A DNA stretch of 43,822 nt from an aff. Roholtiella sp. LEGE 12411. Lineage in GTDB: Bacteria > Cyanobacteriota > Cyanobacteriia > Cyanobacteriales > Nostocaceae. Shown here piece after piece: positions 2,761 to 42,818 of the stretch; position 1 is the first letter of the stretch; each line of letters opens with the position of its first letter. The DNA is taken from assembly GCF_015206995.1 (NCBI RefSeq), contig NZ_JADEXR010000045.1, forward strand, positions 1 to 43,822. Direction: 5' to 3'. The position numbers and the translations under genes were made by a program. The notes below the pieces were generated by a model. The model did not search any database, was not told where the DNA came from, and saw only the letters and a program-made list of their open reading frames with translations.

Positions 2761-2772
2761 TACTAAAAACTA

Positions 2773-3887: not shown

Positions 3888-3953
3888 TGAAACCTTTGCC
3901 AGAAAAGGAATTGGGTAAATCATACTTTCTCTTACTCAGTTGATTTTTCGTAT

Positions 3954-4332: not shown

Positions 4333-4341
4333 ATTCTAGTT

Positions 4342-6931: not shown

Positions 6932-6950
6932 CGTTCTTCCTCCTATAGAC

Positions 6951-18647: not shown

Positions 18648-19469
18648 TTAATTATATTTACCTATTTTTTGAGGAGTATTGAAGTCTTGCGAAAATATCT
18701 GAGAGATAAACCGGAAAGCTGCAATTGTATTTGGGAAATCGGTGTACTCTTGGAGGAGTGAGATATTCCATAATTCTTGAGCTATAATAGTCAATGGATC
18801 TAAAAAGATATCTTCTTTTCCATTTCCTCCAACCAAATTCAAGTGTTTATTTAACAAATGAATTTCTGTGCAGCCTGCAATAAAGTTTTGTACATTATAC
18901 TTAGCTTGCAAAGCTTCCAAAATAGGTAGACATTTTTGTAATTCACCTTTAACTTTCAGATAATAAATCATCTGGTGAATTAGCTTTTGATCACTTTCAT
19001 CAGGTAACACAATGTAATTATTAGTATACTGCCAGAGAATATGGTTTTGAAATATTTCTAACTTTTGCGTTCCGGTTGAGCAAATTAATAGATGCTTCTT
19101 CTGTTGGTCTAAAATCTTTTTTAAGATGATATCTACTAGAGATATAACTCGTTCCCTTAGCTGATAGGGGAGTTTGGGTAATAAGTAATGAGATGTTATA
19201 CAACAGATGACAATGTTTGAGACATCTAATTTACACAGTTGATATAAAGCCTCTATTAAATTAGCAAGTAAAATTTGATCATTTCCCCTGAGCAAAGCCT
19301 CGGTTCTATCAGGAAAAGTGGGATCAGAATAAACAATAACTTTAGGTGATTGTTGTTCGCGTTGACCTAAGAGATTATATTCATATATTGTTTTCAAAAA
19401 TTCAGCTGATGCCAAAGGCCCCATACCACCTATAATGCCTAGCATTTTCTGGTTACGACTTTCCATCAT
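18648..19469 (-). CDS. Aspartate/glutamate racemase, McyF-like
   Basis: A 273-aa protein of the Asp/Glu racemase family. It has the N-terminal IIGGMGPLASAEF, the first catalytic Cys in NIVICCITSHYLLP and the second in NFIAGCTEIHLL. PLP-independent racemases of this family use such a Cys pair. It lies between the first NRPS and the stand-alone A-PCP, ending 6 bp before the latter's ATG. In the microcystin cluster McyF has the same position in logic: supplying D-Asp to an A domain of D-A-R-H type. The start could be ATG 19469 or the Met at codon 9; neither has a clear ribosome binding site. Confidence 0.85.
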   Translation of the reverse strand: MMESRNQKMLGIIGGMGPLASAEFLKTIYEYNLLGQREQQSPKVIVYSDPTFPDRTEALLRGNDQILLANLIEALYQLCKLDVSNIVICCITSHYLLPKLPYQLRERVISLVDIILKKILDQQKKHLLICSTGTQKLEIFQNHILWQYTNNYIVLPDESDQKLIHQMIYYLKVKGELQKCLPILEALQAKYNVQNFIAGCTEIHLLNKHLNLVGGNGKEDIFLDPLTIIAQELWNISLLQEYTDFPNTIAAFRFISQIFSQDFNTPQKIGKYN

Positions 19470-19641: not shown

Positions 19642-22600
19642 TTAGCAAGATTCGAGGTCAACATTGAAGCTATTGATTAGCTGCTGAGTTTCAGCTACAT
19701 CAGTCAGGGAGATTTGAGATAGAAGATGGGCACAATTGAGTGGAATATTTTCCAGCAAAACTTGAATTTGTTTCAGCATTTGGCGAATAGTGGGAGCATC
19801 AAATTGGTCGGGAGCATAAGTAATCTGTAATAACAATGTCGCTCCCATTTCTACTGTGACGCTGAGAGGAAAGTTTGTTCTTGAAAAAGAACGAACATCG
19901 AGAATTTTCAACTTGTCATTTCCCTCCAGTAAAGAAGCATCTACAGGGTAGTTTTCAAAAGTCACCAAGCTTTCAAATAAAGGCATTTCTTTGGGTACTT
20001 CACTCCACGCTTGAACCTGTAGCAATGGGCTGTACTGGTACTCAAGCAACTCAGCTTGTTGTTGTTGTAACTGCTTGAGCCAACAGAGGAGAGAGACATG
20101 AGGAGAAACCTGCACCCGCACAGGTAAGGTGTTGATTAATAGTCCCACCATTGACTCAACCCCCTCTAGTTCTGGCGGACGACCGGAAACAGTAGCGCCG
20201 AAAACAACATCTTCCTCACCACTATATCGGCTGAGGAGCAAAGCCCAAACGCCCTGAATTAAAGTGTTAAGCGTCAGATGATGCTGTCTGGCAAAGGACT
20301 GTAGAGCAGATGTCACATCGGCTGATAGTTGGATTCGCTCTTGAGCATGTTGCTGCTCAAGATTAAGCAAGCTACCAGACACGCTTACCTTTACCTGGGT
20401 TGGGGCGCGTAGTCCCCTAAGCATTTGCCGCCAGAAAGTTTCTGCCCCAGACCAGTCCTGCTGTTGCAACCAAGCAATATAGTTGCGGTAAGCAGGGCTG
20501 TCTTCTAAGTATAAATCCTGACCATTACACAATGCTTCATAGAAGTTGAAGACCTCTTTCAAAATAATGGAATTGCACCAACCATCCAGTATCAAATGGT
20601 GGTGGCTCCAGAGGAGTTGATGAATGTCTTTAGCAGTTTGGATCAGCGCCAATCGGATTGGGGGTGTGTCGCTTAGAGAAAAGCCCTGATGTAAATCTGC
20701 TTGGAGATAAGCTTGCAACTGTTCTTCTTGCTCGCTTGTGGACAAGTGACACCAGTCTTGCTGCTCCCAAGGTACTTCTAAGTTCTTTAGCACCACTTGT
20801 AGCGGTTCGTCCAAATCCTTCCAGATAAAAGCCGATCGCAAGCTAGGATAACGATTAAAGACTTTTTGCCATGCTTGCTTAAAAGCAGAAACGTTCAAAT
20901 TTCCTTGCAGAGTGAAGATTTTTTGCTGGAAATAAGGTTTAGACTCTGGTGTGTATAGGCTATGGAAGAGTAAGCCTTGCTGCAAATGCGAGAGGCAGTA
21001 GATATCTTCAATCGCAAATTTCGCGCTTAGTCGATCAATCTGTTGCTGGTTCAACTTAGCCAACGGAAAATCAGAAGGCGTGTAGCCTCCACGAGAAAAG
21101 AGGCAGTGACGGATGATTCCCTCTAGTGCGGCGATAAAATTCTCAGCTAGATTTTCAATTGTCGATCGCTTATGTACATTCTCGCTATAAGTCCAATTTA
21201 GTTGCAGTTTACCTTCAAGTGCGATCGCATCGATCGCAATTAAATGAGTCCGGGTTCCTTGCAAGCTCCGCTCGGCTCCTGTAGACTCCTTAGCTAACCG
21301 AAATAGTGTTGATTCCGATAGGACTCGATCAAACTGTCCCAGGTAGTTAAAGTTAACTTCCGGTTGAGGAAGAACTTGAAGTTTCTTGGTGATTTCTGGG
21401 TTTCCACTCAGATAGCGCAGCAATCCATAACCGATCCCCCGGTTAGGAATCTGGCGCAGTTGCTCCTTGACCGATTTCAAAGCCAAGTCAGTAGTACTAG
21501 ACACCTCGTCGCTTGCTTGTGTACTTCCCAAGTCCAGCCGGACGGGGAAACGGGTGGTGAACCAGCCAATGGTACGGGAAACATCCACATCATTAAAAAG
21601 TGCCTCCCGCCCGTGACCTTCTAAATCAACTAATAAAGTGTTTTCTCCTGTCCACTGCCTAAAGGCTAGTGCTAAAGCTGTCAATAACAAATCGTTGATT
21701 TTGCTTTGATAGGCGGCTGGAACTTCCTGCAACAGGGCTTGGGTATCTTCCCGACTGAGCGATACGCAGACAGTACGGGCAGAGGCAACGGTGTTGGGCT
21801 GCTCAAAATCATCTCTAGGCAATCGGGGGACTTGATCGAGGGAATTCCTCAGCCAATAATCAGACTCTGGCTCAAGGGCTGTAGACTGAGCATATATGCT
21901 CAGACGCTCTGCCCAATGCTTGAAAGAAGTCGTTTTGGCGGGAAGTTGGATGGCTGCACCCTGACTTAGCTGCTGGTAAGCTTTGTGGAAATCTTCTAAC
22001 CAGATGCGCCAAGAGATGCCATCCATGATTAAATGGTGGATGGCGATCGCCAAACGCCCTGATTGATGAGTACCGAGATCAAATAAAGCAACTCGCATCA
22101 TCGGTGCGGTTGACAAATTCAGCGTTACCTGCATTTTGCCAACCTCTGTCTCCATCGCACTAGTTTGCTCTAGTTCTGGGAGAGCCGACAAATCTATCCG
22201 AGAGAATGGAACAACATCGGCATTGCTGTGAATTTGCCGTAAGCCCCCTCCCCCTTGCTCAAAGCGCAAGCGCAGAGCATCGTGATGTTTGTTCAAGTGT
22301 TGTATGGCTTGCTCCAACCAGTTGGGGTTCACATTTGATGGAGTTTCCAGCAGAATCGACACATTCCAGTGATGAGGCTCAGGTAGATTCTGCTCAAAGA
22401 ACCATTGCTGAATGGCTGTCAGAGGTACTTCGCCAGTGACCAACCCCTGATCTGTTTGTAGTTCAGGTGTCTTAGTTGCTACTGCTATCAACTGTGCGAT
22501 CGTTTGATGTTGAAATAGCTGCATGGGCGTCAGACAAAGCCCCGCTTCCTTGGCTCTGGCGACAATCTGAATGCTGAGGATAGAATCTCCACCCAACTCA

Positions 22601-25600
22601 AAGAAGTTGTCTTGCACTCCCACTCGTTCGACACCCAATACTTGGGCCCAGATATTAGCCAATAGTTGTTCTTCTGGAGTGCGAGGTGCAATAAAGGATG
22701 CTTCTAGTTCGGGGCGTGTCCAGTCTGGTGCTGGTAGTGCCCGACGATCTAGTTTGCCGCTAATGCTTAACGGCAAGGCGTCCAGCATCACGAAGGCGGA
22801 GGGTACCATGTATTCGGGTAGTTGCTTCTGCAAAAAGCTGCGTAGTTCACTGATTGTCAGTGACAGCGAACGTTGTGGAACGATATAAGCGACTAAGCGC
22901 TTCGTACCCAGACCGTCATCCACGGCTATAACTACAGTTTCTCTTACCTCTGGGTGCTTACGCAGCGCCGTATCAATCTCTCCCAACTCGATGCGGAAGC
23001 CGCGAATCTTGACTTGATTGTCAATACGACCGAGAAATTCAATATTACCGTCCAGTAGATAGCGGGCTAAATCCCCTGTTTTGTAGAGCCGCGCTTCTGG
23101 TACATCGCTCAAGGGATTGGGGATGAACTTTTGTGCCGTCAAGATAGGTTCGTGGAAATACCCACAAGCAAGACATTCTCCACCAATATACAACTCCCCA
23201 GGTACACCAATTGGGCAAGGATTGAGATAAGAGTCAAGGATATAATATTGTGCGTTCTGGATTGGTTTTCCATAGGGAATGCTAATCCAATGCGGTTCTA
23301 CTTGTCCAATTGGATAATAATTAGACCAAACTGTTGCTTCAGTTGCCCCACCCAGACTAATGATCTCAACCCCTGGGAAAGCTGTTCTAACTATATCTGG
23401 TAGCGTTACTGGTATCCAATCACCGCTCAAAAAGGCCAGACGCAGTTGGCTATTTTGATTGATAGATTTTATTGTCGGGAAAAAGGGTAGTAGTTGTTGA
23501 AGTGCAGCAGGAGCAGAGTCCCACAAGGTAATCGGCTCGTTGCAAAGCAGATGCAACAATTTTTCTGGATCTCTAAGATCACGGCTAGATACTAGCTGAA
23601 TCGACCCTCCCGCAGCTAGTAATCCGAAGATGTCGTACACAGACAAATCGAAACATAAGGAAGTGATAAATAGAACTCTATCAGCTGAACTAATATTAAA
23701 CCTGCTGTTAACCCAGTTAATGAGATTAATCACGGGTTGATGACGAACAAAAACTCCCTTCGGAGTCCCTGTAGAACCAGATGTAAAAATGACATAGGCA
23801 ACGTTATCAGAGCTAACTATATCTGGCAAGTTTTCAATTGGTAACTGCTCCAGATAGGAAGACATCCAAATTTGTTGATGTTCAAATGAGTGGTCAATTA
23901 AATCAGGTTTTTGATATTTATCCAAACAAATTAAGTGTTTTAAAGCAGGTAGTTGCTGTTGTAGCTCATTTATCTGCGGCAAAAGCGAAGTCTGCGTGAC
24001 TAGATAGTTAATTTTGAGATCGCAAAGGAGCAGTTGAACGCGGACTTTAGGAAAGCTAGGTTCAACGGGCACATACGCACCTCCTGCTTTCAAAATGCCT
24101 AACACCGCCGTAATCATCTGGAGCGATCGCTCCAGATAAACTGCCACCAGTACCCCTGGTTTTACTCCCAATTGCTGCAAATGATGTGCCAACTGATTAG
24201 CTCGACAGTTCAGTTCTCGGTAAGTAATTTGCTGTTCTTCAAAAACTACAGCAATAGCATCCGGTGTTTGTTCTACCTGAGACTCAAATAGTTGATGGAT
24301 ACACAAATGCTTGGGGTAATCAGTCTTAGTATCATTAACCTCAAGCAACAACTGTCGCTCTATGTCACTCAGAATTTCTAATTCACCAATCTCAGATGTT
24401 GAGTTTTCAATTACATATTTTACTAAGTTGTAAAATTGACTTGCCAATATTTGTATCTCTTGAGTAGAAAACAAAGTATTGTCATAAAACAACTTGGCTT
24501 TCAGAGATTCATTTATATGTAAAAGAGAAAGTTGAACTTTAAATTTATCAATGCAACTATAAAAATCAAGATGAGAAAATGATATCTGACCTAAGTTAAA
24601 ATTTAATAAATCTTCGTCTTGAGATTCTCTAAAATTAAATTGAAAATGATAATATGAATCTGTTGCTTTTTTGCTTATTTCAACTTCTTTCCAGTCAAAA
24701 AAATATTGCCATTTGTATGCCTCTCTAGTAGATTCATCTACTAGACATAGTAATTTGTGGAATTGGATATTTTTTTCTATATGCGAATGAATAGGTAAGT
24801 ATTTTTCGAGGAGTCCTATAGCGTCCACCAGTTCCTCATACTTACGACAATCATAACTAGTACCTACAATAATATCTGCCTGACCAGACAGACGAAACAG
24901 AAGTATTTGCCAGCACGTCAGGAAGAAGCAAGAAACCGAAGTTTCATATTTTTGGGTAATTTCTTCAATTTTATTAACTAGATTAGATTCAATTTCCAGA
25001 CTTAAACTTTTGGGTGTAAATTCTTCTGCTTTACCGAATTTGCATTCAAAAGGAAGCGAAAAAGTAGGAATATTAGCTCTATTAATTTTCTGCCAAAACA
25101 ATTTTCCTGTTTGTTCATCTTCTGACTCAAGTAAGTCATTTTGCCATTCAGAAATATCAGCATATTGAAGGGATTCACTTGAAATATCTTGCCCATCTAA
25201 GCAGGCGGTGTAACACAAAATAATTTCACGTAACAAATTATTGAGTGTTGCTGTATCACCATAAATACTTGGCAAGCTGACAATCAGGATATGCTTAGTT
25301 GATGAGAGAGCAACTAATGATAGATGCAAAGGAATATCTTGCTCAAAATTGAAAGGTAAATTTTTCAATTCATTAACAAGTAAATCAATTTTTGTTGTTT
25401 GTTCCTTGGGTTTTAAATTAATTAAATTGTGTTCGTGGATTGATAAAAGCTTTTGATCAGATATGACCTGGACTGGTATTTTCATGCCAGGTAAGTAATG
25501 AAAGTTAGTCCGCAAGATATCATATCGATTGACCACTTTTTCTAAGGCAGCTTTTAACACCCCTTTATTGATACTTCCCTCAATCAAAATAGTACATTGA

Positions 25601-25695
25601 GAGCGGAAAGGTAAGTTATAAATACCTTGCTGCAATAGCCACAAATGTTTTTGTTGAGGAGAAAGCTGAAACCCCTCAATTGATTTCACTTGCAT
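19642..25695 (-). CDS. NRPS, degenerate C-A-PCP-E-C
   Basis: A 2,017-aa protein, ATG at 25695 with AGAGGT upstream. Order: C-like domain (1-440), whose HHxxxDG site reads VSLPSIYGDTATL and so lacks the catalytic His pair; A domain (FTSGSTGTPKG near 642, GKLDRRAL near 980); PCP (FFELGGDSILS near 1032); epimerase (HHLIMDGIS near 1222, EGHGRE, NFNYLGQFD); and a second C domain with a good HHHLILDGW near 1698. The A-domain residues read D-L-Y-D-F-S-L-V-W, nearest in my memory to Cys-type codes (DLYNLSLIW), but this is uncertain. The E domain predicts a D-residue. The final C domain feeds the stand-alone A-PCP encoded two genes downstream. Confidence 0.93.
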   Translation of the reverse strand: MQVKSIEGFQLSPQQKHLWLLQQGIYNLPFRSQCTILIEGSINKGVLKAALEKVVNRYDILRTNFHYLPGMKIPVQVISDQKLLSIHEHNLINLKPKEQTTKIDLLVNELKNLPFNFEQDIPLHLSLVALSSTKHILIVSLPSIYGDTATLNNLLREIILCYTACLDGQDISSESLQYADISEWQNDLLESEDEQTGKLFWQKINRANIPTFSLPFECKFGKAEEFTPKSLSLEIESNLVNKIEEITQKYETSVSCFFLTCWQILLFRLSGQADIIVGTSYDCRKYEELVDAIGLLEKYLPIHSHIEKNIQFHKLLCLVDESTREAYKWQYFFDWKEVEISKKATDSYYHFQFNFRESQDEDLLNFNLGQISFSHLDFYSCIDKFKVQLSLLHINESLKAKLFYDNTLFSTQEIQILASQFYNLVKYVIENSTSEIGELEILSDIERQLLLEVNDTKTDYPKHLCIHQLFESQVEQTPDAIAVVFEEQQITYRELNCRANQLAHHLQQLGVKPGVLVAVYLERSLQMITAVLGILKAGGAYVPVEPSFPKVRVQLLLCDLKINYLVTQTSLLPQINELQQQLPALKHLICLDKYQKPDLIDHSFEHQQIWMSSYLEQLPIENLPDIVSSDNVAYVIFTSGSTGTPKGVFVRHQPVINLINWVNSRFNISSADRVLFITSLCFDLSVYDIFGLLAAGGSIQLVSSRDLRDPEKLLHLLCNEPITLWDSAPAALQQLLPFFPTIKSINQNSQLRLAFLSGDWIPVTLPDIVRTAFPGVEIISLGGATEATVWSNYYPIGQVEPHWISIPYGKPIQNAQYYILDSYLNPCPIGVPGELYIGGECLACGYFHEPILTAQKFIPNPLSDVPEARLYKTGDLARYLLDGNIEFLGRIDNQVKIRGFRIELGEIDTALRKHPEVRETVVIAVDDGLGTKRLVAYIVPQRSLSLTISELRSFLQKQLPEYMVPSAFVMLDALPLSISGKLDRRALPAPDWTRPELEASFIAPRTPEEQLLANIWAQVLGVERVGVQDNFFELGGDSILSIQIVARAKEAGLCLTPMQLFQHQTIAQLIAVATKTPELQTDQGLVTGEVPLTAIQQWFFEQNLPEPHHWNVSILLETPSNVNPNWLEQAIQHLNKHHDALRLRFEQGGGGLRQIHSNADVVPFSRIDLSALPELEQTSAMETEVGKMQVTLNLSTAPMMRVALFDLGTHQSGRLAIAIHHLIMDGISWRIWLEDFHKAYQQLSQGAAIQLPAKTTSFKHWAERLSIYAQSTALEPESDYWLRNSLDQVPRLPRDDFEQPNTVASARTVCVSLSREDTQALLQEVPAAYQSKINDLLLTALALAFRQWTGENTLLVDLEGHGREALFNDVDVSRTIGWFTTRFPVRLDLGSTQASDEVSSTTDLALKSVKEQLRQIPNRGIGYGLLRYLSGNPEITKKLQVLPQPEVNFNYLGQFDRVLSESTLFRLAKESTGAERSLQGTRTHLIAIDAIALEGKLQLNWTYSENVHKRSTIENLAENFIAALEGIIRHCLFSRGGYTPSDFPLAKLNQQQIDRLSAKFAIEDIYCLSHLQQGLLFHSLYTPESKPYFQQKIFTLQGNLNVSAFKQAWQKVFNRYPSLRSAFIWKDLDEPLQVVLKNLEVPWEQQDWCHLSTSEQEEQLQAYLQADLHQGFSLSDTPPIRLALIQTAKDIHQLLWSHHHLILDGWCNSIILKEVFNFYEALCNGQDLYLEDSPAYRNYIAWLQQQDWSGAETFWRQMLRGLRAPTQVKVSVSGSLLNLEQQHAQERIQLSADVTSALQSFARQHHLTLNTLIQGVWALLLSRYSGEEDVVFGATVSGRPPELEGVESMVGLLINTLPVRVQVSPHVSLLCWLKQLQQQQAELLEYQYSPLLQVQAWSEVPKEMPLFESLVTFENYPVDASLLEGNDKLKILDVRSFSRTNFPLSVTVEMGATLLLQITYAPDQFDAPTIRQMLKQIQVLLENIPLNCAHLLSQISLTDVAETQQLINSFNVDLESC

Positions 25696-25937: not shown

Positions 25938-27068
25938 TTATTCAAGCGCAACCTGACTATAACTAAACGGTTCAGACATTCCGACTAATACTTCTTGGTG
26001 TCCGACAAATGGTGTACGTCCATGAGCCACTAGCATATTGTCTAACATTAGTATGTCCCCTTTATTGCCAGGAAAAATGACTGTTTCTTGCCGATATGCT
26101 TGGCTAATTTCATCTATTACAGAAGTTTCAATGGGAGAGCCGTCACCATAATAGGTGTTGTTGGGTAGGTCTTCTTCTGGAAATGCTAGCAAAGCTTCTC
26201 GAAGCAATGGTTCCAAAGTGGAAATGTGGAAAAAAGCAACTTGATTAAACCAAATTAGTTCATCAGTTTCAGGATGTTGAGCAATAATCGGAAGAACCGT
26301 GCGAGTTCTCAAACGATTATTATCTTTCCATTCAAATTCAATATTGTTACTAAGGCAATACTTTTCGACTACCGACTTGTCTGTAGTTTTAAAAACCCTT
26401 TGCCAAGTCTGGCTAAAATTACCGCCAAAGTTTCTAACTAACATCCACTTCTTTTGGAGAAATTGCTCTTTTATCCTAGAGTTAATATGATCAATAACTC
26501 GCCGACAATCTGCAAGCGGTATTTCTCCTCCCTGCTGTGCAGGTTCAATACAGAAAAAGAAGATTTTTAGAGGCCAGGAACTCTTATCTGAATACTCGTT
26601 ATGGAAAAATATATTTTGTTTGGGAGATGCTTCTTCATTGTGTATGTTCTGCTCAGTGGGTTCTTCTAGTAAATCACCAGAAATTGACTTGATTAACTTC
26701 TCAAATTGAGTCGAGCCATCAATACTGAAGTTTCTGAACAGAATACCTCCATACTGTAGTAACTTAGCCCTAATAAAATCTCGATTATCGCTTGCCCATT
26801 CAGCTAAATCTAACCCGTCTAAATTAGGTTTTAATACTAAAGGAAGATGAGATTGAGGGAAAATATGCTCTACTTTCACTAAGTCTTCTGGGAAAATGCT
26901 GATAGTTTTTCTAGGTAACAACCTAAATCTATCTATGTTTCTAGAATCAGAAAAATTTGAGCTTTTCATCTGAACTTTTGAGATGGCAATTGATGATTTA
27001 TTCGGTGATAACCGTAAGGGAAGGAAAGCTTGGAGGGCTTTGGTAGAAAAACTAACTATAGATATCAC
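25938..27068 (-). CDS. TauD/TfdA-family (SyrP-like) Fe(II)/2OG oxygenase
   Basis: Up to 376 aa from a GTG at 27068; the ATG at 26969 (343 aa) is equally possible, since neither start has a clear ribosome binding site. The metal-binding motif is FFHNEYSDKSSWPLK (His-x-Glu), followed by QQGGEIPLADCRRV. The distal His and the 2OG-binding Arg fit MLDNMLVAHGRTPF with its following Arg. This is the clavaminate-synthase-like/TauD pattern; SyrP of syringomycin, a relative, hydroxylates the beta carbon of carrier-bound Asp. In this cluster, next to a predicted Asp/Glu-loading A domain and its racemase, beta-hydroxylation of that residue is a reasonable guess. The H-x-E motif argues for hydroxylation and against halogenation. 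Confidence 0.85.
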   Translation of the reverse strand: MISIVSFSTKALQAFLPLRLSPNKSSIAISKVQMKSSNFSDSRNIDRFRLLPRKTISIFPEDLVKVEHIFPQSHLPLVLKPNLDGLDLAEWASDNRDFIRAKLLQYGGILFRNFSIDGSTQFEKLIKSISGDLLEEPTEQNIHNEEASPKQNIFFHNEYSDKSSWPLKIFFFCIEPAQQGGEIPLADCRRVIDHINSRIKEQFLQKKWMLVRNFGGNFSQTWQRVFKTTDKSVVEKYCLSNNIEFEWKDNNRLRTRTVLPIIAQHPETDELIWFNQVAFFHISTLEPLLREALLAFPEEDLPNNTYYGDGSPIETSVIDEISQAYRQETVIFPGNKGDILMLDNMLVAHGRTPFVGHQEVLVGMSEPFSYSQVALE

Positions 27069-27146: not shown

Positions 27147-27938
27147 TTAACTCCAATAGAAGACTTTTTGATCATCTTTGGAAATCGCTACGAAGCCACC
27201 GATAGTAATCCGTTCCTTGTTACCCTGGACATCAGCAACTGCATGGAAAATACTGCCACCCTGGAAAAGAATCATATCTCCAATGTCGGGATTCAGATAT
27301 CGTTTGTTGCATTTATCTAAATCCAAATCTTTTTTAGGAGTTGTCAATTGTTCGGGTAACAGATCGTAAAGAACTAGTTCTCCACCTTGTTCTGCTTTGT
27401 CGATAACTATAAAATAACTCAGGCCATTTACTATTTTGGCAATTTGATTCATGTAATCATAAGCCCCGTCTCCCAGAAATTCATTGCCTCTATGCAATTT
27501 GATTCCGCCTTTGTTGGGATGCACAAATCTGATAGTAGCCGGTGTATAAATCTTCTGTGCATCCTCTTTGGGTATCTCAACTGTTCTGCCTCCTGACATC
27601 TTAGTCAAAATGGCTTCAACTCTTGCTTCATAGTTAGTTTTGAAAAGATTTTTTAAATCCTCTCTCAATATAGTCGCATCTTGAAAGTATTGTGTTCTGT
27701 CGCTTCCCTTTGCTACCAGAATAGCGCCTTGAATTGCTCCGTAGTATAAAGGGTCTCTTACCTCTTTTTTGCTATTAAGTTTATTCTGGACACTGAGCAT
27801 TTCTTCTTTCGAGAAAACTCCTTTGATCAGCATCCCATCAATTTCGCATTTATAGATTTGATTCACTCCATCTGGATAATTGGTTATTGATTCAGCATCA
27901 ATCGTGAGCCAATTTTTGATAGCTAAATTAAAAGTCAT
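27147..27938 (-). CDS. WelO5-like Fe(II)/2OG enzyme with H-x-G motif (candidate halogenase), copy 1
   Basis: 263 aa from ATG 27938, which has AAGGCTGG upstream and lies 14 bp beyond the preceding stop; a TTG frame to 27962 is less likely. The metal site reads KLHRGNEFL: His149, Gly151. The distal His is near 232 in IFHAVADVQG, followed by Arg and TIGGFVAIS and the end VFYWS. I recall WelO5 as having VHVGNDFL and ending TIGGFLAFSKERDKIYYWS, with Gly where hydroxylases have Asp/Glu, leaving room for chloride. The N-terminal NYPDGVNQIYKCEIDGMLIK also follows WelO5. Tandem with a sister gene. Function as a halogenase is inferred from the motif. Confidence 0.82.
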   Translation of the reverse strand: MTFNLAIKNWLTIDAESITNYPDGVNQIYKCEIDGMLIKGVFSKEEMLSVQNKLNSKKEVRDPLYYGAIQGAILVAKGSDRTQYFQDATILREDLKNLFKTNYEARVEAILTKMSGGRTVEIPKEDAQKIYTPATIRFVHPNKGGIKLHRGNEFLGDGAYDYMNQIAKIVNGLSYFIVIDKAEQGGELVLYDLLPEQLTTPKKDLDLDKCNKRYLNPDIGDMILFQGGSIFHAVADVQGNKERITIGGFVAISKDDQKVFYWS

Positions 27939-27952
27939 GATTCCAGCCTTGA

Positions 27953-28753
27953 TTAACCCCAATAGTGTATTTTATGCTCGTCGTTTGATAAAGTGGCAAA
28001 GCCTCCTATGGTGATCCGAGTCTTTTGACCTTTGACTTCAGAAATTGCGTGCCATATAACGCCTTCGTGAAAAAGAACTAGATCGCCAATATCTGGGTTA
28101 TAGGATCTTTTTTGAGATTTCTCTAAATCCCAATACTTTTTATCCTTTGCTGTTTGTTCTGGCAACAGATCGTAAAGAAACAGTTCTCCACCTTGCTCTG
28201 GTTTATCGATGACTATATAATAGCCAAGACAGTCTTTGATTTTAGCAATTTGCCTTAAGTGGTCAAATGCTGGGTTAGAAATAAATTCATTACCTCGATG
28301 TAATTTGATGCCGCCTTGATTGGGATGTACAAATCTGATTTGAGCCGGAGCATATACCTGCTGGGCATTTTTTCGAGCTAACTCGACTGTTCTACCTCCT
28401 GAAATCTTAGTCAGTATCGCTTCAACAGTTGCTTCATAGCCGCTTTCAAAAAAATTTTTCAACTCATCTCTCAAGATAGCTGCATCTTGGAAGTATTTTG
28501 TTGTGTCGCTCTGGTTTTCCACCAGAAGAGCTCCTAGTAATTGCCCATAGCCTTGAGTACGACGTTGAAGTGTCAGTGCATCTTTTTGGCTCTCAAGTTT
28601 ATGTTTAACTTTGAGCATTTCTTCTTTTGAGAAAACTCCTTTGATAAGCATTCCATCGATCTCGCCTTTGTAGATCTGGTTAACGCCATCGGGATAATCA
28701 GTTACTGATTCCGCGTCAAGAGTAAGCCACAAATCGTTTTGAACGTGTGCCAC
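27953..28753 (-). CDS. WelO5-like Fe(II)/2OG enzyme with H-x-G motif (candidate halogenase), copy 2
   Basis: A 266-aa protein, GTG start at 28753 with only a weak ribosome binding site. The metal site reads KLHRGNEFI: His152, Gly154. The distal His is near 235 in IWHAISEVKG, then RITIGGFATLS and the end IHYWG. Roughly two thirds of residues match the downstream sister gene by eye, so they arose by duplication. It is the first gene of the minus arm, facing the 1.1-kb control region. Keeping Gly at the carboxylate position in both copies suggests it matters. Possible roles are chlorination of the lipid tail, of an NRPS residue or of the lanthipeptide core; the sequence cannot tell which. Confidence 0.82.
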   Translation of the reverse strand: MAHVQNDLWLTLDAESVTDYPDGVNQIYKGEIDGMLIKGVFSKEEMLKVKHKLESQKDALTLQRRTQGYGQLLGALLVENQSDTTKYFQDAAILRDELKNFFESGYEATVEAILTKISGGRTVELARKNAQQVYAPAQIRFVHPNQGGIKLHRGNEFISNPAFDHLRQIAKIKDCLGYYIVIDKPEQGGELFLYDLLPEQTAKDKKYWDLEKSQKRSYNPDIGDLVLFHEGVIWHAISEVKGQKTRITIGGFATLSNDEHKIHYWG

Positions 28754-29863: not shown

Positions 29864-30175
29864 ATGTCACTAGCAAAATTCACTGAATTTGTAAAACAAA
29901 TTACAACAGAAAGTACAGATCCAGCTAAAAACTCAGATTTGAAAACTGCTTTTAGTGGGCTGACAAACGTTAATGGAGAAGCCAGAGTAGACGCTACAGC
30001 AAAAAAACTTGCTGAAGTGGCAAAATCTAGAGGCTTTGATGTTTCTGAGACGGATGTGAAAGAGTATTTCAATTCGCTGAAAAGCCAATATGACCTCAAC
30101 CCCATGATGGCTTCGATGATGGACAGCTATTGCAGCAGCACTTGCCATCTTGGAAGTGCAGTTGGTAAGAGCTGA
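29864..30175 (+). CDS. Nif11-leader lanthipeptide precursor
   Basis: A 103-aa peptide; ATG 29864 is chosen because TAGGAGAG lies just upstream (a longer in-frame extension to 29810 lacks one). Residues 1-87 are a soluble helical leader of Nif11 type: MSLAKFTEFV at the start and AKSRGFDVSETDVKEYF near 53-69. The C-terminus is a compact core SYCSSTCHLGSAVGKS (88-103) with Cys90 and Cys94 and Ser/Thr at 88, 91, 92, 93, 98 and 103, so up to two thioether rings. The leader does not end in a Gly-Gly. It is the first gene of the plus arm. The only LanM in the window (8653-12111) is of the ProcM-like type that normally modifies Nif11-type precursors, so the two are paired here by inference. Confidence 0.85.
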   Translation: MSLAKFTEFVKQITTESTDPAKNSDLKTAFSGLTNVNGEARVDATAKKLAEVAKSRGFDVSETDVKEYFNSLKSQYDLNPMMASMMDSYCSSTCHLGSAVGKS

Positions 30176-30682: not shown

Positions 30683-31540
30683 ATGCTTTATTCACCTATA
30701 GCCAAGTCTCTATACAATTTTGTTGAACTGGATGTCAGTGAAATCGGTAAGTATCCAGAGGGGATTAGAGATATTTGCGATCGCCAAATTCATGGTGTGG
30801 TGGTCAAGAATTTCTTTTCCCAGGAAGATATTACCAAAGTCGTCAGTCAACTAACGCGCAAAGGCCCATTTCCCGGCTCGCCTTTTGGAGATGTTCTGAT
30901 TTATGGCCCGGCATTATACGTATGCGATGCCGACATAACTCAGTATTGTAACGAAGCGGTTGATTTTCGTAAATATTGCCGCCAACTCTTCAGTGAAGGA
31001 GCAGATTTCGAGACGCGGTTTACAGAAGTGATTGGTGCTATGTCTGGTGGTCGTCCGGTGGAACTTCCTGTGACTCCTGATGGTTACGCCTATACTCCAA
31101 CGACAATTCGAGTTTTAGAGCCAGGTCAAGACATGGGCTGGCACTTTGAAAATCAGTTTCTGCATTGCACACCAGGATATCGTCATCTAGAAACCATAGT
31201 CGAACCCGAAGATCATCTCAGCTATTTTGTAGTATTGAGTGCTGCGGATGCTGGGGGAGAATTAGTTCTTTATGATTTAGAGTGGTCACAAACAGAGTGG
31301 CCGGATAAAGAGCATGGTGGAACCAGGAAAAATGGTCTAGTGAACGGTAAGCTGATCGCCTCAGTTATGGAAGATTACGACCAAATGTTCCTCAGTCCGC
31401 AAGCTGGTTCTCTGGTGGTGTTTGATGCGGGGAGAATTTTGCACCGCGTTTCTGCGGTTGAAGGTTCTCGTCGTCGGATCACCGTTGGTGGATTTCTTGC
31501 CTTTTCAAAGCATCGTGAAAAAGTTTTCTACTGGAGTTAG
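30683..31540 (+). CDS. WelO5-family Fe(II)/2OG oxygenase with H-x-E motif
   Basis: A 285-aa protein related to the two minus-strand H-x-G enzymes and close to WelO5 in its general pattern: GKYPEGIRDICDRQIHGVVV at the start, DAGGELVLYDLEW in the middle and RRRITVGGFLAFSKH with the end VFYWS. The metal site is GWHFENQFLH: His154 and Glu156, with the distal His near 254 in ILHRVSAVEG. The acidic ligand predicts hydroxylation or another oxidation, not chlorination. It thus gives a natural contrast to its paralogs. It heads the FAAL/PKS genes, 23 bp before the FAAL start. The ribosome binding site is weak. Confidence 0.85.
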   Translation: MLYSPIAKSLYNFVELDVSEIGKYPEGIRDICDRQIHGVVVKNFFSQEDITKVVSQLTRKGPFPGSPFGDVLIYGPALYVCDADITQYCNEAVDFRKYCRQLFSEGADFETRFTEVIGAMSGGRPVELPVTPDGYAYTPTTIRVLEPGQDMGWHFENQFLHCTPGYRHLETIVEPEDHLSYFVVLSAADAGGELVLYDLEWSQTEWPDKEHGGTRKNGLVNGKLIASVMEDYDQMFLSPQAGSLVVFDAGRILHRVSAVEGSRRRITVGGFLAFSKHREKVFYWS

Positions 31541-31563: not shown

Positions 31564-33303
31564 ATGGAATTTTCTACTTTAGTAGATGCTTTGGGAAAAA
31601 GAGCGCGACACCAGCCTGACAAGAAAGCTTATACCTTTCTTAAGGATGGAGAAATAGAGACAGATACCTTAAACTATCAAGAATTAGAGCAATTGGCACG
31701 GGCGATCGCAGCTCAACTTCAGAGTTTTAACGCCAGTGGTCAACGAGCTTTACTACTATATCAGCCGGGTTTAGAATTTATTGCCGCCTTTTTCGGATGT
31801 CTCTACGCCGGGGTGATCGCTGTTCCCGTCTATCCCCCCCGTGCAAATCAATTAATGTCTAGGTTGTTGGCGATCGCAACCGATGCAGAAGCGACCTTTG
31901 CCCTAACAACCACATCAGTCCTGGCTAATACTCAGCATTGGTTGCTACAAAACCCAGAGCTAGGACAGTTGCACTGGCTAGCGACCGATGGTATCAATGT
32001 AGACATGGCACAATCGTGGGATGAACCAATTGTCAGCAGCGACACCTTAGCGTTCCTCCAGTACACCTCTGGTTCTACAGGCACTCCCAAGGGAGTAATG
32101 GTCAGCCACGGCAATTTGCTATCTAACTGTGCAGACCTTGACCTGGGATGGAATCACACACCAGACAGCATCATTGTCACTTGGCTACCAACCTTTCATG
32201 ATATGGGGCTAATCTATGGAGTTATAGAACCTTTGTATAAAGGGTGTTCTTGCTACATGATGCCCCCTGTGTCCTTTCTGCATAAACCAGTGCGATGGCT
32301 ACAGGCAATTTCGATTTACAAAGGGACTCATAGCGGCGCTCCGAATTTTGCCTACGATCTGTGCGTGCGTAAAATAACCTCAGAACAAAAAGCTACTCTG
32401 GATCTCCGTAGTTGGCAGATGGCTTTAAATGGTGCTGAACCAGTTAGAGCAGATGTTCTACAACGATTCGCCGAAACCTTTAAACCTTGTGGATTTGATT
32501 TAACTGCCTTCTGTCCCGGTTATGGTTTAGCAGAAGCTACCCTGAAAGTGGCTGCGGCGCGCCAGCAAGATGCGCCTGTGTTTTTGCAAGTTGATGCAGA
32601 TGCACTAGCACAAAATCGGGTAATGGAGGCTAGATCAGATTCGCAAAATGTGCAAACCTTAGTGGGATGTGGACGTAGCGAGATTGATACAGAAATTGCG
32701 ATCGTTCATCCCGAATCTTTCACAAAATGCCAAGCTGCGGAAGTGGGTGAGATTTGGATCTCAGGTTCCACCGTTGCTGTTGGCTATTGGAGGAAATCCC
32801 AACAGACACAAGAAACCTTTCAAGCAACCCTAAAAGACACTGATTCTAGAACGTTTCTACGTACAGGCGACTTAGGATTTATTAAGGATGGCGAGTTATT
32901 TGTTACAGGGCGACTCAAGGATGCGATTATTATCGAAGGTCGCAACCATTATCCCCAGGATATTGAACTGACTGTTGAGAATAGTCATCCAGCATTGCGA
33001 AAAAGTTGCACAGCAGCGTTTGCAGTGGAAGTCAAAGGCAGGGAGCAATTGGTAGTAGTTCAGGAAGTCGAGCGGAGTTATCTGCGACGGCTAGATGTAA
33101 ATGAAGTCGTGGGTAACATCCGTCAAGCAGTGTCAGTGGAGCATGACATCCGAATTCATACTGTTGTATTAGTCAAAACAGGAACTATTCTTAAGACCTC
33201 CAGTGGTAAAATTCAACGTCAAGCTTGCCGTCAAAAGTTTTTGAATCATACATTAGATGTGTTGACCTCAGAAAAAACGCAAAAATTAGCAGTAATTTTA
33301 TAA
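31564..33303 (+). CDS. Fatty acyl-AMP ligase (FAAL)
   Basis: A 579-aa adenylate-forming enzyme. It has QYTSGSTGTPKGVMVSHGN near 165, WLPTFHDMGLIYGV near 205, PGYGLAEATLKVA near 320, RTGDLGF and GRLKDAIIIEGRNHYPQDIE near 450. The HDMGL motif and the VYPPRANQLMSRL segment are typical of FAALs, which load fatty acids on an ACP as acyl-AMP, in contrast to acyl-CoA ligases. No carrier domain is attached; the C-terminal ACP of the next gene, 16 bp downstream, is the likely acceptor. It is expected to start the lipopeptide with a fatty acid from primary metabolism. Confidence 0.93.
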   Translation: MEFSTLVDALGKRARHQPDKKAYTFLKDGEIETDTLNYQELEQLARAIAAQLQSFNASGQRALLLYQPGLEFIAAFFGCLYAGVIAVPVYPPRANQLMSRLLAIATDAEATFALTTTSVLANTQHWLLQNPELGQLHWLATDGINVDMAQSWDEPIVSSDTLAFLQYTSGSTGTPKGVMVSHGNLLSNCADLDLGWNHTPDSIIVTWLPTFHDMGLIYGVIEPLYKGCSCYMMPPVSFLHKPVRWLQAISIYKGTHSGAPNFAYDLCVRKITSEQKATLDLRSWQMALNGAEPVRADVLQRFAETFKPCGFDLTAFCPGYGLAEATLKVAAARQQDAPVFLQVDADALAQNRVMEARSDSQNVQTLVGCGRSEIDTEIAIVHPESFTKCQAAEVGEIWISGSTVAVGYWRKSQQTQETFQATLKDTDSRTFLRTGDLGFIKDGELFVTGRLKDAIIIEGRNHYPQDIELTVENSHPALRKSCTAAFAVEVKGREQLVVVQEVERSYLRRLDVNEVVGNIRQAVSVEHDIRIHTVVLVKTGTILKTSSGKIQRQACRQKFLNHTLDVLTSEKTQKLAVIL

Positions 33304-33319: not shown

Positions 33320-34780
33320 GTGTTAGATCAAGCTCAAATTCAACATTTTAAAGAAAAAGGGTGGGTTGGCCCACTCGATATTTTTTCTGCACCAGAAATT
33401 GCCGCAGTTAAAGAGTGTTTAGAAACCAATAGTCGCACCATCAAAGAAGCAGATGGTCAGCAAATAATCACCTTCTATAATAATGTTATTAACCTAGAAA
33501 CACCCCGGGATCATCATCTATTTCATCAACCAATAGTAGAAATATTTAAGAATTCAAACTTAATTCAGCGATTAAACCAAATTGCTGGGGAGAATTTATT
33601 GCTTTGGTATACTAATGTCTTTTGTAAGATGCCCGGACAAGGAGAAATAAAATGGCATCAAGCGAAAGAATTCTATACATCAAGTGACATTGATTTTGAA
33701 AAGAAAACTTTAGTTTATTCTCTCGATGAAAACCCTGTAAATTTAACTGTCTGGGTAGCACTTGAAGATGCCGACCTTGAAAATGGCTGTATGCGTTTCG
33801 CCAATGGTTCGCAGCAGCAAATATTTAAAATATTAAAAGGGAGTGTTCCAGCATCTGAAGGTGTGTTTGCTGGCATCAGTGCTCACAAAACAGTTTGGCA
33901 AAAAGAGCAACAATACTCCTTGTCTTATGAATTTGATGAAAATGACTGGGAAGTAGAAGCAGTACCAGTCAAGGCGGGTCAAGCGATCATCTTTACTGAA
34001 AGTACCATGCATTGTTCGCTGCCCAACAACTCGAATCGCCGCCGTTTGGCAATTATTGGGCGTTATGTACGTCCGAGTACTCAAGTTTATCCTTATCGCT
34101 GGAAAGGAGATTTTATTGATGAAAATGCACATAATATTAAAAGGCATTTTTGTATTTTAGTTTCAGGACGTGATGATTACGGACATAACGTAGTTAGAAA
34201 TTCGCATGATTTAGATGAGACGGAAGTGCAATTTCAACTCATGTCTAATTTGGTTCGCTTTGCTCACGTAAATATTCCTGAAGACAAACTACAATTAGAG
34301 ATTTACGGTTTAGAAAAACAGGCGTTAGAAGGAGATTGTCAAGAACAAGAACCGAATCCAATTTTGCATCCCCGCAAATACATTCAATGGCAAGCGTGGC
34401 ATCAATATCAAGGGATGAATTCTACCGAAGCGATGAAGCGTTATAGCCAATTGGTAGCGACTCTGCCACGTAAGAATAACAAAGATTCTACCAGCAGCAT
34501 CATCAATACTGGAACGGTAAATAAAGGATTATTAAAAGCTGCGGATATTCAAAATTGGTTAATCTCTTATTTAGCTGAACTATTGGAAATGCAGCCAGAT
34601 GAAATCGAAGTGGAGATTCCCTTTGAACGTTATGGTTTGTCATCGGCAGAAGGAACGGTTCTAATTGGGGATATTGAGGCTTGGGTGGGATATGAACTTG
34701 CTCCAACTCTAGTGTACGAATACCCCACTATTGAGGCTTTAGCCCAGCACATAGCAGAGGAAATGCAAGTCTTGGCGTAA
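33320..34780 (+). CDS. PhyH-family oxygenase fused to a carrier domain
   Basis: A 486-aa protein with a GTG start at 33320 preceded by AGAGAGAT. Residues 1-280 look like a phytanoyl-CoA dioxygenase (PhyH): KWHQAKEFYTSSDIDF near 112, VWVALEDADLENGCMRFANG near 145 and TMHCSLPNNSNRRRLAIIGR near 230. The C-terminal 85 residues are an ACP: IQNWLISYLAELLEM, then the phosphopantetheine site YGLSSAEG, then YPTIEALAQHI. The ACP should receive the fatty acid from the FAAL, and the oxygenase would then hydroxylate the tethered acyl chain in cis. Similar FAAL-ACP-oxygenase sets precede PKS-aminotransferase genes in other cyanobacterial lipopeptide clusters. Position of hydroxylation is unknown. Confidence 0.87.
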   Translation: MLDQAQIQHFKEKGWVGPLDIFSAPEIAAVKECLETNSRTIKEADGQQIITFYNNVINLETPRDHHLFHQPIVEIFKNSNLIQRLNQIAGENLLLWYTNVFCKMPGQGEIKWHQAKEFYTSSDIDFEKKTLVYSLDENPVNLTVWVALEDADLENGCMRFANGSQQQIFKILKGSVPASEGVFAGISAHKTVWQKEQQYSLSYEFDENDWEVEAVPVKAGQAIIFTESTMHCSLPNNSNRRRLAIIGRYVRPSTQVYPYRWKGDFIDENAHNIKRHFCILVSGRDDYGHNVVRNSHDLDETEVQFQLMSNLVRFAHVNIPEDKLQLEIYGLEKQALEGDCQEQEPNPILHPRKYIQWQAWHQYQGMNSTEAMKRYSQLVATLPRKNNKDSTSSIINTGTVNKGLLKAADIQNWLISYLAELLEMQPDEIEVEIPFERYGLSSAEGTVLIGDIEAWVGYELAPTLVYEYPTIEALAQHIAEEMQVLA

Positions 34781-34834: not shown

Positions 34835-37800
34835 GTGGAACCTATAGCGATTATCGGCATCGGTTGCCGTTTTCCCAATGCTAACAATCCTGAGTCATTC
34901 TGGAAGCTTTTGCATAACGGCATTGATGCGATCGCCCAAGTGCCCAAAGACCGATGGGATATTGATGCTTTTTACGATCCCAATGTAGGTACTCCAGGAA
35001 AAATGAATACTCGCTGGGGTGGTTTCTTAGACATGGTGGATCAATTTGATCCTGGCTTTTTTGGGATTTCTCCCCGCGAAGCCGAACGCATGGATCCCCA
35101 GCAAAGACTAGTTTTAGAAGTAGCTTGGGAGGCTTTAGAAGATGCTGGCGTTGTACCAAAGCATCTAGCAGGTAGCCAAACTGGGGTTTTCATTGGGATT
35201 GGCAACTACGACTACGGTAGGTTTTTATGTAGCGACTTAGCCAACATCAATAGTCATAATGGCGTTGGTCTGACTCTTAGCATTGCTGCCAATCGCTTAT
35301 CTTATTTTCTGGATCTGCATGGGCCAAGTATGGCCATAGAAACAGCCTGCTCTTCATCCTTGGTAGCCGTTCACTCTGCTTGTCAGAGTTTGCGAACTGG
35401 CGAGTCCAACTTGGCCATTACTGGCGGCGTGAGTTTGATGCTATCGCCAGATATGACGATTACCTTCTCCCAAGCCCGAATGATGTCACCTGATGGCCGA
35501 TGTAAAACCTTTGACGCAAGTGCTAATGGCTATGTGCGGGGAGAGGGTTGCGGGATTGTGATTCTCAAGCGCCTCAGTGATGCCATTCAGGATGAAGACC
35601 GCATTTTAGCAGTAATTAGAGGTTCGGCAGTTAATCACGATGGACTCAGCAACGGCATTACAGCACCCAATGGCTTGGCTCAACAGGCGTTGATTCGCCA
35701 AGCTTTAAAAAATGCCCTCGTTTCACCAGCAGAAATTAGCTATGTAGAAGCGCACGGGACTGGGACTCCTTTAGGAGATCCCATTGAGATTAGAGCTATA
35801 AAGGCAGTATTGATGCAGGGTCGCTCCTCAGAACAACACTGTGGGATTGGGTCGGTAAAAACAAACATTGGGCATTTGGAAAATGCTGCCGGGATAGCAG
35901 GTTTAATAAAGGTGGTGTTATCGCTACAACATGGGGAAATTCCTCCCCACCTCCACTTGCAAAAGTTAAATCCCCATCTGGGTTTAGATGGAACGCCGTT
36001 TTTTATTCCCAGAGAATGTCAACCTTGGCCTGTAACTACTAGCGATCGCCATTTGGCTGGTGTAAGTGGGTTTAGCTTCGGTGGTACAAATTGTCATGTG
36101 ATTTTAGAAGCAGCACCAGAGGGAAGTCAAGAGTCAAAAGTCAAGAGTCAAAAGAAAGAAGTTGTAGAGCGATCTTTGCACCTACTGACGTTATCGGCTA
36201 AAAATGAGGCGGCTTTGAAAGAACTGGCGCAACGTTATGCAGATTTCTTAGCGTCTCATCCCCAGGTATCCCTGGCAGATATTTGCTTTACTGCCAACAC
36301 GGGACGGTCAAATTTTGCCCATCGGCTGGCAATTGTCGCTGAGTCACATCAACAGTTGGGCGATCGCCTCCGTAATTTTACGGTAGGCAAGGAAACATCT
36401 GGACTGTTAAATGGCAAGGTTGCCAGCCGCAAAACCCCAAAAATAGCCTTTTTATTTACAGGACAGGGTTCCCAGTACGTAGGTATGGGTCGTCAACTTT
36501 ACGAACAAGCACCCACCTTCCGAAAAACCCTCGAACGCTGTGATCAAATTCTACGTCCTTATATAGAAAAGCCCTTGCTGGAAATTCTTTATTCAGCTGG
36601 GGGTGAAAGTTCTCTTCTAGACGAAACCGCCTACACCCAACCCGCTTTATTTGCCCTAGAATATGCCCTCGCAGAATTATGGCAGTCCTGGGGTATAATA
36701 CCGGATATCGTGATTGGTCATAGTTTGGGTGAGTATGTCGCCGCTTGTGTAGCCGGTGTATTTAGCCTGGAAGAAGGTCTGAAGCTAGTTGCTGGGCGTG
36801 CTAGATTAATGCAGGTTTTGTCTCAAAATGGTGAGATGGTAGCTGTATTTGCGTCCCAAAGCAAAGTGCAAGCGGCAATTCAACCATACTCACAAGAAAT
36901 TTCCATTGCCGCAATTAACGGCCCGGAAAATATTGTAATTTCCGGTGTGCGATCGCCAATCCGGGCAGTGGTTGCCACCTTGGAAGCAGAAGGAATCAAA
37001 ACTCAACAGTTACGAGTCTCTCACGCCTTTCACTCGCCACTGATTGAACCGATGCTAGATGCCTTTGAAACCGAGGCCAGCCAAGTACAGTTTCAAACTC
37101 CACGCTTACCCCTGATTTCTAACTTGACGGGCGAAATGCTGCCTTCCGAATATATCCCTGATGCGAACTACTGGCGACGCCATACCAGAGAGCCAGTCAA
37201 ATTTATGGCGGGGATAAATACTTTATTTGAACAGGGTTATAACCTATTTTTAGAAATCGGTTCCCAGCCCATACTGGCAAGAATGGGTCAAAAATGCCAG
37301 CCAACTCCTGCAACTTGGCTCTCAACACTTAGCCAAAGGCAAGAGGATTGGCAAGTAATGCTTTCGAGTTTATCTGCTTTATACGTCCAGGGAATAAATG
37401 TCAACTGGATGGCATTTGATCAAGATTATTCCAGAAATCGGCGATCGCTTCCTACCTATCCCTTCCAACGTCAACGTTACTGGATTAAATCGGCGGCTGG
37501 AGTAGTGATGAATTTTAACGGAGATTCCAACCCCACACCAATTGAGCAAGACAGTCTTTCCCCAGTACCTAGGGTTCCAAACAATAGAGATGAAAAACTC
37601 TACCCACAAGGGAAATCGGGGATGGGGCACGGGGAAGAGTCACCAATGCCCAATGCCCAATGCCCCAAGTCGGCGGGCGGCTATCCCTCTACAGACACCT
37701 GGGGATGGAGTTTACCGCCGACTTTCGATGAAATAACGAACCGCAAAGACGCAAAGCAGGAGTATTCACAGATGGAGAGCAATCAAAATCATTCCCCAAA

Positions 37801-42329: not shown

Positions 42330-42818
42330 ATGAAAAATTTGGTTAATCATGACACAAATAATCAAATCCAACTAGAAAACTTTCAAGTTTTGCCAAAATT
42401 TGTTGGTACTTGGGAAGGTAAGTGGACTCGTCTAGACCAAGATGGTAATGAAATTGAGCGATTTACATCAGTTTTACACCAAAACATTGTTAACAATCAA
42501 TGGGTACAAACTAATCAGAATAAATATCCTAATGGCCAAATTGTTAACATAAGTTTTTTTGGCAAGGCTGTGGGAAAGGGTCAGGTACTTTTTGAAAGTC
42601 CCGATTATCCTTATTGTAACTTCCAGATGCTTGTAGACGAATATAGTGATCATGTAATCATCATTAACGTATCAGATAAAATAGCGGGTTTTCCATTAGC
42701 AATTGAAACTATCAACTTAATTAATGATCACCAGAGAATCAGAACTTTACAACAGTTTAAACCACCCGATGGAAAATTCTCTGGGTTCATGATTGTTGTT
42801 GAACACAAGATTATTTAG
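42330..42818 (+). CDS. DUF3598-like lipocalin-fold protein
   Basis: A 162-aa protein beginning one base after the PKS stop codon, so probably co-translated. The N-terminal FVGTWEGKWTRLDQDGNE matches the opening of cyanobacterial DUF3598 proteins (G-T-W-x-G plus alternating beta strands), a lipocalin-like fold. It has no signal peptide or membrane segment. DUF3598-like proteins recur in cyanobacterial biosynthetic loci, but a specific role is not known to me; binding of a lipid or lipopeptide intermediate is a plausible guess. It is the last gene of the plus arm. Confidence 0.65.
   Translation: MKNLVNHDTNNQIQLENFQVLPKFVGTWEGKWTRLDQDGNEIERFTSVLHQNIVNNQWVQTNQNKYPNGQIVNISFFGKAVGKGQVLFESPDYPYCNFQMLVDEYSDHVIIINVSDKIAGFPLAIETINLINDHQRIRTLQQFKPPDGKFSGFMIVVEHKII

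Follow-up and report, generated by a model that had tools for sequence, protein, structure and literature searches.

A pair of WelO5-family enzymes in a conserved orphan lipopeptide gene cluster of cyanobacteria

The 43,822-nucleotide stretch of aff. Roholtiella sp. LEGE 12411 analyzed here (hereafter, the window) is one whole contig of its genome, NZ_JADEXR010000045.1, and its gene content is known only up to the contig ends. It carries a tandem pair of genes for Fe(II)/2-oxoglutarate (2OG) enzymes of the WelO5 family, designated W1 and W2, and a third gene of the same family, W3; their setting is a conserved orphan pathway which, judging by its gene content, would produce a lipopeptide. An earlier note on this DNA, made from the letters alone, had taken the pair for aliphatic halogenases in a lipopeptide/lanthipeptide locus. 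The three genes are as follows.

27953..28753, minus strand: W1, WelO5-family Fe(II)/2OG enzyme; GTG start; H-x-G metal site (LHRGNEF); Gly at the WelO5 Ser189 position
27147..27962, minus strand: W2, WelO5-family Fe(II)/2OG enzyme; H-x-G metal site (LHRGNEF); Ser at the WelO5 Ser189 position
30683..31540, plus strand: W3, third WelO5-family enzyme, predicted hydroxylase; H-x-E metal site (GWHFENQF); E value 1.9e-115

Iron site, fold and lid of W1 and W2

Both proteins of the pair cover the whole of the Pfam profile PF22814 (WelO5; positions 1-277), with E values of 2.5e-100 for W1 and 3.4e-100 for W2 and scores of 336 and 335.6 bits against a cut-off of 27; the search of the window's own genome with this profile returned, besides these two, one third member, W3 (385.6 bits). 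The LHRGNEF motif claimed for both proteins is indeed present, at His152/Gly154 of W1 and at His157/Gly159 of W2 as counted from its TTG start at 27962. A possible internal ATG at 27938 gives His149/Gly151 and is evidently the W2 start behind the numbering of the earlier note. The C-terminal endings that it quoted are also there (RITIGGF...YWG in W1 and RITIGGF...YWS in W2), and the WelO5 motif HVGNDF and ending YYWS that it gave proved right when read in a protein identical to the Protein Data Bank (PDB) WelO5 over 290 residues, the numbering of which is used below.

In the alignment, the His and Gly of LHRGNEF correspond to His164 and Gly166 of WelO5, the second His to His259 and a conserved Arg to Arg270; the window W1 and W2 thus have an H-x-G site without the carboxylate and retain the distal His and the 2OG-binding Arg. 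Reading LHRGNEF as an H-x-x-x-E triad, which would place the pair with hydroxylases and which the earlier note itself had named as a refuting outcome, was rejected, since the Glu aligns with Asp168 of WelO5 and is E, Q or D across the 14 W1/W2 copies of the seven clusters described below. Nine columns are acidic in all 14 copies, and four of these (W1 residues 22, 45, 211, and 239) are mostly non-acidic in eight WelO5-like rows. Residues 22 and 45 are N-terminal, residue 211 belongs to the lid segment and is Glu also in all six W3 rows, and residue 239, four residues past the distal His, is Glu in WelO5 too; from their places in the alignment, none of the four appears to be an obvious replacement iron ligand. 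The predicted structure of W1, which is 34% identical to WelO5, matches WelO5 far better than it does the next family and has the WelO5 fold.

By the lid we mean the segment from the GGEL strand to the P-x-x-G-D turn, which includes the region 215-232 that bears on the substrate scope of WelO5 (PMC5480362). It comprises 36 residues in WelO5, 36-52 in WelO5-like H-x-G rows (six of eight matched by the pattern) and 40 in each of six W3 rows, compared with 24-32 in W1/W2 (12 of 14 rows matched); the rows unmatched by the pattern are G492_W2, G449_W2, G460_x, and G395_x. From the shorter lid we infer that the pocket of W1/W2 may be more open than that of WelO5.

The surrounding genes and their conservation

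The other genes of the cluster are listed below, starting with those of the presumed assembly line.

33320..34780, plus strand: HctB-like three-domain protein with a SyrB2/CytC3-type halogenase domain (WHQA, H-x-A), an acyl-CoA-binding domain and a carrier domain
31564..33303, plus strand: FAAL-like fatty acyl-AMP ligase (FAAL)
34835..42328, plus strand: polyketide synthase (PKS)/nonribosomal peptide synthetase (NRPS) protein, ketosynthase (KS)-acyltransferase (AT)-acyl carrier protein (ACP)-aminotransferase-methyltransferase-condensation (C)
42330..42818, plus strand: DUF3598 protein
25938..27068, minus strand: TauD-type Fe/2OG oxygenase (FHNEY, H-x-E), between W2 and the NRPS gene
19642..25695, minus strand: NRPS with a degenerate C-like domain, adenylation (A) domain, peptidyl carrier protein (PCP), probable epimerization (E) domain and C domain
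18648..19469, minus strand: Asp/Glu racemase-family protein
16761..18641, minus strand: NRPS, A-PCP
12529..16815, minus strand: NRPS, TubC_N-C-A-PCP-thioesterase (TE), terminal module
29864..30175, plus strand: LanA, class II lanthipeptide precursor-like open reading frame (ORF) of 103 aa; C-terminal DSYCSSTCHLGSAVGKS; AGGAGA upstream
8653..12111, minus strand: LanM, DUF4135 and LANC domains; conserved Cys1022 and Cys1067-Cys1068

The W1/W2 pair is co-directional with the TauD and NRPS genes. The NRPS/PKS and lanthipeptide setting described by the earlier note is confirmed (NRPS on the same strand, a precursor-like ORF at 29864-30175, LanM at 8653-12111); it had recognized the pair of WelO5-like enzymes and overlooked both the third homologue W3, with its H-x-E site, and the HctB-like halogenase with H-x-A. 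In the latter protein the PhyH, ACBP, and PP-binding domains all score above their Pfam cut-offs, while the match to TIGR01762 ("chlorinating enzyme"), of 117 bits, is under the cut-off of 226; its halogenase domain matches CytC3 with an E value of 1.3e-22, and its WHQA aligns with the WHQA of SyrB2 and CytC3. The H-x-A site, with no carboxylate, is found in all seven clusters. As to the NRPS proteins, the first condensation-type domain of the one at 19642-25695 has SLPSIYGD and no HHxxxDG; the homologues of this protein in G353 and G507 are about 460 aa shorter, and that in G507 adjoins an asparagine synthase-like gene. The A-domain pocket of the last module, read by pattern extraction, may resemble a Tyr-type code. 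The left flank of the window (1429-8352) contains genes for a Rep_1 replication protein, a Phage_pRha protein, IS200/IS605-type transposases and an IS4 transposase; a tblastn search of 72,556 plasmid records with W1 returned nothing, and carriage on a plasmid was rejected as far as this collection is concerned.

Searches beyond the window brought the number of clusters to seven. PF22814 matched in 36 of 388 genomes of the order (E <= 0.001), and four of these have W1, W2, and W3 on one contig: G000 (the window), G353 (an uncultured Nostoc metagenome-assembled genome), G003, and G332. A W1/W2 profile built from the rows of these four and of Fischerella sp. PCC 9431 (G507) matched in 21 of 217 genomes of the family, with the pair at E < 1e-100 in five (G000, G353, G507, G492, and G449). 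PF22814 was also run on 386 genomes of the phylum, partly the same as those of the order, and added no further cluster. All seven clusters, i.e., the window and those of six other genomes (G353, G003, G332, G507, G492, and G449), contain W1, W2, and W3, the FAAL and HctB-like genes, the NRPS and the racemase-like gene; the PKS gene was matched in six, and the contig of G353 ends within 1.4 kb of the HctB-like gene. In G492, W3 and the FAAL gene each lie in two frames, and the PKS and NRPS genes are split.

In the phylogenetic tree, W1 and W2 form a 14-member clade separate from WelO5 with support of 100/99; the tree carries a long-branch warning and omits G154_x (a fragment) and the two-frame W3 of G492, which is likewise outside the six-row W3 counts. 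This joint clade is firm, and within it W1 and W2 may or may not be two ancient orthologous lines: the W1 proteins form one group with weak support (70/71), the W2 proteins do not group, a single W2 clade is not rejected (p-AU 0.064), and the window W1 and W2 are nearest each other, with 63-64% identity. Support is weak for the order in which W3, WelO5, and W1/W2 branch, and W1/W2 and WelO5 may or may not owe H-x-G to a single inheritance. The residue at position 166 changed at least five times on the 31-row tree and four times on a 29-row tree without G091_x and G042_x; the Glu/Gly difference within W3 requires one change, as does the Gly/Asn difference within W1/W2.

W3 has Glu at this position in six of the seven clusters (in G492, in the second frame of the split gene), the window among them, and it is accordingly a predicted hydroxylase that we do not file with WelO5-type aliphatic halogenases. 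The orthologue in G332 (L038, 7043-8029) has Gly both at 166, where the other six have Glu, and at 189; by these residues it is a natural candidate for a hydroxylase/halogenase switch.

The searches also returned WelO5-family genes in other settings. In G460 (L101) and G395 (L103), WelO5-like genes with HVGNDF are divergent from NRPS genes for proteins of 2170 and 2142 aa, the former with two A and two C domains, and these constitute a second WelO5-NRPS neighbourhood. In G465 (L102, 9383-13260, minus strand), a WelO5-like H-x-G gene abuts a gene for a lantibiotic dehydratase N-terminal-domain protein; a 65-aa ORF resembling NHLP-type precursors is nearby, with terpene synthase-like, AspH-family, and tryptophan-halogenase genes around. 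G184 and G133 (L044, L045) encode WelO5-family proteins with an H-x-H metal site, and G091 (L042) and G154 (L043) encode WelO5-like proteins with H-x-E, the gene of G154 having an internal stop and lying near a LanM 39% identical to that of the window.

The lanthipeptide-related genes are part of most of the clusters. Cys90 and Cys94 of LanA are invariant in five rows, in which no GG motif was seen ahead of the Cys region, and the match of LanA to Nif11 is under the cut-off (E 0.021). Cys1022, Cys1067, and Cys1068 of LanM, which we take to be the zinc ligands of its LanC domain, are invariant in eight LanM rows. A LanA profile, to which three of the four genomes matched had contributed rows (G492 had not), found matches in only these four of the 217 genomes of the family, all four inside a W1/W2/W3 cluster; LanA is also present in the clusters of G003 and G332, and LanM in all six LanA clusters. 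The association of LanA and WelO5-family genes is thus strong. The exception is G449, absent from the profile matches: W1, W2, W3, and the FAAL, HctB-like, PKS, TauD, and NRPS genes share a 312-kb contig with neither LanA nor LanM, and ABC-transporter, HlyD, and FtsX genes occupy the place expected for LanA.

Proposed pathway and competing explanations

In the reading that we prefer, W1 and W2 would serve as tailoring enzymes in a conserved, orphan route to a lipopeptide and chlorinate unactivated C-H bonds there, while W3 would hydroxylate; we assign this reading a probability of roughly 0.55. It starts from the family membership, the predicted fold of W1, the residues of the metal sites, the gene order and the occurrence in seven genomes; from these we infer the order of steps, the substrates and the activities. 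FAAL would load a fatty acid onto the carrier domain of the HctB-like protein, and the H-x-A domain of the latter would chlorinate the acyl chain; the PKS would extend the chain and install a beta-amine, probably methylated; NRPS would add about three residues, and the TE would release the product. W1, as well as W2 where H-x-G is kept, would bind chloride in the open site vacated by the carboxylate and chlorinate an unactivated aliphatic C-H of the peptide, of an amino-acid unit or of a carrier-bound intermediate. W3, with Glu at position 166, would hydroxylate. The shorter lid of W1/W2 may suit a substrate larger or differently presented than the alkaloids of WelO5. LanA and LanM would make or contribute a lanthipeptide in six of the seven clusters and would be dispensable for the persistence of W1, W2, and W3.

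A number of observations weigh against this proposal, and the first of them concern the iron site. AspH, with the same two-His site, does not halogenate its EGF-domain substrates (PMC13168262), and H-x-G is hence not sufficient for halogenation; furthermore, homology to an iron halogenase is no guarantee of halogenase activity (PMC8406957). It is possible, though less likely, that W1 and W2 hydroxylate or carry out some other oxidation in spite of H-x-G, with a tightly held water in place of the carboxylate, for which AspH provides a precedent (PMC13168262). The same is suggested by the proteins that, outside the WelO5 type, come structurally closest to the W1 model, namely dioxygenases (3w20, OkaE, FtmOx1, and AsqJ), by the H-x-N motif of three W2 copies, and by the absence of Ser at the Ser189 position of W1. 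Ser occupies position 189 in all eight WelO5-like rows and is said to be important in WelO5 for keeping chlorination over hydroxylation; Gly is found there only in the window W1 among the 14 W1/W2 copies, the window W2 having Ser. At the sequence offset (not the structural position) of the water-holding Asp of AspH, four residues before the distal His, all 14 copies have Gly or Ala. The claim of the earlier note that the pair are aliphatic halogenases is, consequently, upheld in part: the WelO5 family, the H-x-G site with its distal His and Arg, the fold predicted for W1 and a setting unlike the alkaloid one speak for it, whereas the insufficiency of H-x-G, the loss of Ser189 in W1 and the H-x-N of W2 do not.

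Position 166 is Gly in W1 of all seven clusters, while in W2 it is Gly in four and Asn in three (G353, G507, and G492), which means that W2 cannot be a chlorinating enzyme in all versions of the pathway. One of the two proteins could be a non-catalytic or regulatory partner, kept as a subunit while its metal site drifts from Gly to Asn, and the retention of both genes in every cluster agrees with this; however, both proteins are H-x-G in the window, and the H-x-N copies retain the two His and the Arg in the alignment and evolve under much the same constraint as the neighbouring W1 genes, which makes such a role quite improbable. Among G353, G492, and G507 the dN/dS ratios (NG86, three pairs each) are 0.13-0.20 for W1 and 0.12-0.17 for W2; YN00 gave 0.10-0.26 for W2 vs. 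0.12-0.14 for W1, the highest value belonging to the W2 pair G353/G492 (0.26). The H-x-N copies are thus not obviously decaying. For W3 the NG86 ratio is 0.09 (three pairs among the window, G353, and G507), and three G003/G332 pairs gave 0.10-0.18 with dS at or above 2.

Two further points against the lipopeptide proposal come from gene order. LanA lies between W1 and W3 in all six LanA clusters, 473-1273 bp and 146-508 bp away, and in G332 W2 adjoins the NRPS while W1 remains beside LanA, which could mean that W1 acts on the lanthipeptide. W1 and W2, or W1 alone, might then modify LanA, as Fe/2OG halogenases of a ribosomal peptide, possibly within a lipopeptide-lanthipeptide hybrid; the restriction of the LanA profile matches to these clusters and the lantibiotic dehydratase-like neighbour of the WelO5-like gene in G465 fit this explanation. 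We nevertheless consider it unlikely, as the window pair is co-directional with TauD and NRPS, and G449 keeps W1, W2, and W3 without LanA, its LanM genes being located on other contigs beside unrelated double-glycine precursors. Because of G449, the WelO5 genes appear to follow the lipopeptide genes, and the lanthipeptide link implied by the earlier note is weakened by this one cluster of the seven. It should be added that the G449 assembly is 38% contaminated, and for this reason we rely on the single 312-kb contig bearing the cluster and not on the genome. Finally, TauD was matched in only three clusters (the window, G003, and G449), so that the gene run W2-TauD-NRPS is not constant, and the two longest W1/W2 lids (32 residues) come near the 36 of WelO5.

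A far-reaching and improbable combination would be one hybrid product linking a chlorinated beta-amino lipopeptide with a lanthipeptide, in which W1 chlorinates the ribosomally made part and the Gly, Asn, and Glu sites divide chlorination, a third chemistry and hydroxylation among themselves.

Comparison with known systems

Neither a published description of this gene set nor one of WelO5 homologues in such a setting was found in the open-licence literature searched, although the set may have been counted in earlier surveys, one of which mentions iron halogenases in "several distinct orphan BGCs" (biosynthetic gene clusters; PMC8406957). FAAL at the start of an NRPS/PKS line is likewise found in lipopeptide clusters of the puwainaphycin (PMC4219810) and microginin types, the putative microginin cluster having a dimetal-carboxylate halogenase (PMC8406957). 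The aminotransferase is shared with puwainaphycin- and microginin-type clusters as well, and we know of no WelO5 homologue in either. AspH has in common with W1/W2 a two-His iron site without a carboxylate (PMC13168262), and differs from them in being a hydroxylase of protein domains. Its Pfam family is presumably other than PF22814.

HctB, the hectochlorin halogenase, is described as a three-domain protein with halogenase, acyl-CoA and ACP parts, in which His111 and Val113 are named (PMC6218459). The window protein has the same halogenase-ACBP-ACP architecture, the comparison being by description and not by sequence; it has H-x-A, as in SyrB2 and CytC3, where Val113 is named for HctB, and stands between FAAL and an aminotransferase-PKS. 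If it works as proposed above, the iron halogenases for fatty acyl chains would gain a second member, HctB being called the only known one in that family in a 2026 preprint (PMC12871659).

The protein that agrees with PDB WelO5 at every one of 290 residues is encoded in G507 (L097, 10470-11342), about 22 kb from W3 of the cluster. Fischerella sp. PCC 9431 is stated to be another name of H. welwitschii UTEX B1830 (PMC4558948). If both names denote one strain, the source of WelO5 also carries W1 with Gly, W2 with Asn, and W3 with Glu; in the same-genus genomes G504 and G506, a WelO5-like gene was the single match to the W1/W2 profile. The orphan "Cluster 17" mentioned in the same paper (PMC4558948), which includes asparagine synthase and racemase genes, may correspond to the NRPS arm of the cluster in PCC 9431.

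The natural substrates of the characterized WelO5-type enzymes are hapalindole-type alkaloids, and engineered variants take other molecules (PMC8407142). From WelO5, AmbO5, and Wi-WelO15 (PF22814), W1 and W2 differ by a separate clade, a shorter lid and an NRPS/PKS rather than hapalindole setting, and W1 also by the lack of Ser189; their substrate is probably bulkier or differently presented than these alkaloids. Efforts to engineer the chlorination of unactivated carbons can start from WelO5, and here a separate clade of its family is found in a lipopeptide pathway. Like the engineered WelO5 variant G166D (PDB 5IQU), W3 has a carboxylate at that position, but it is natural, with Glu and not Asp, and has a Gly orthologue in G332. 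The natural Gly, Asn, and Glu paralogues and the Glu/Gly orthologues of W3 vary the exact residue altered in G166D, and the determinants of chlorine vs. oxygen transfer besides residue 166 thereby become testable with natural sequences of one fold.
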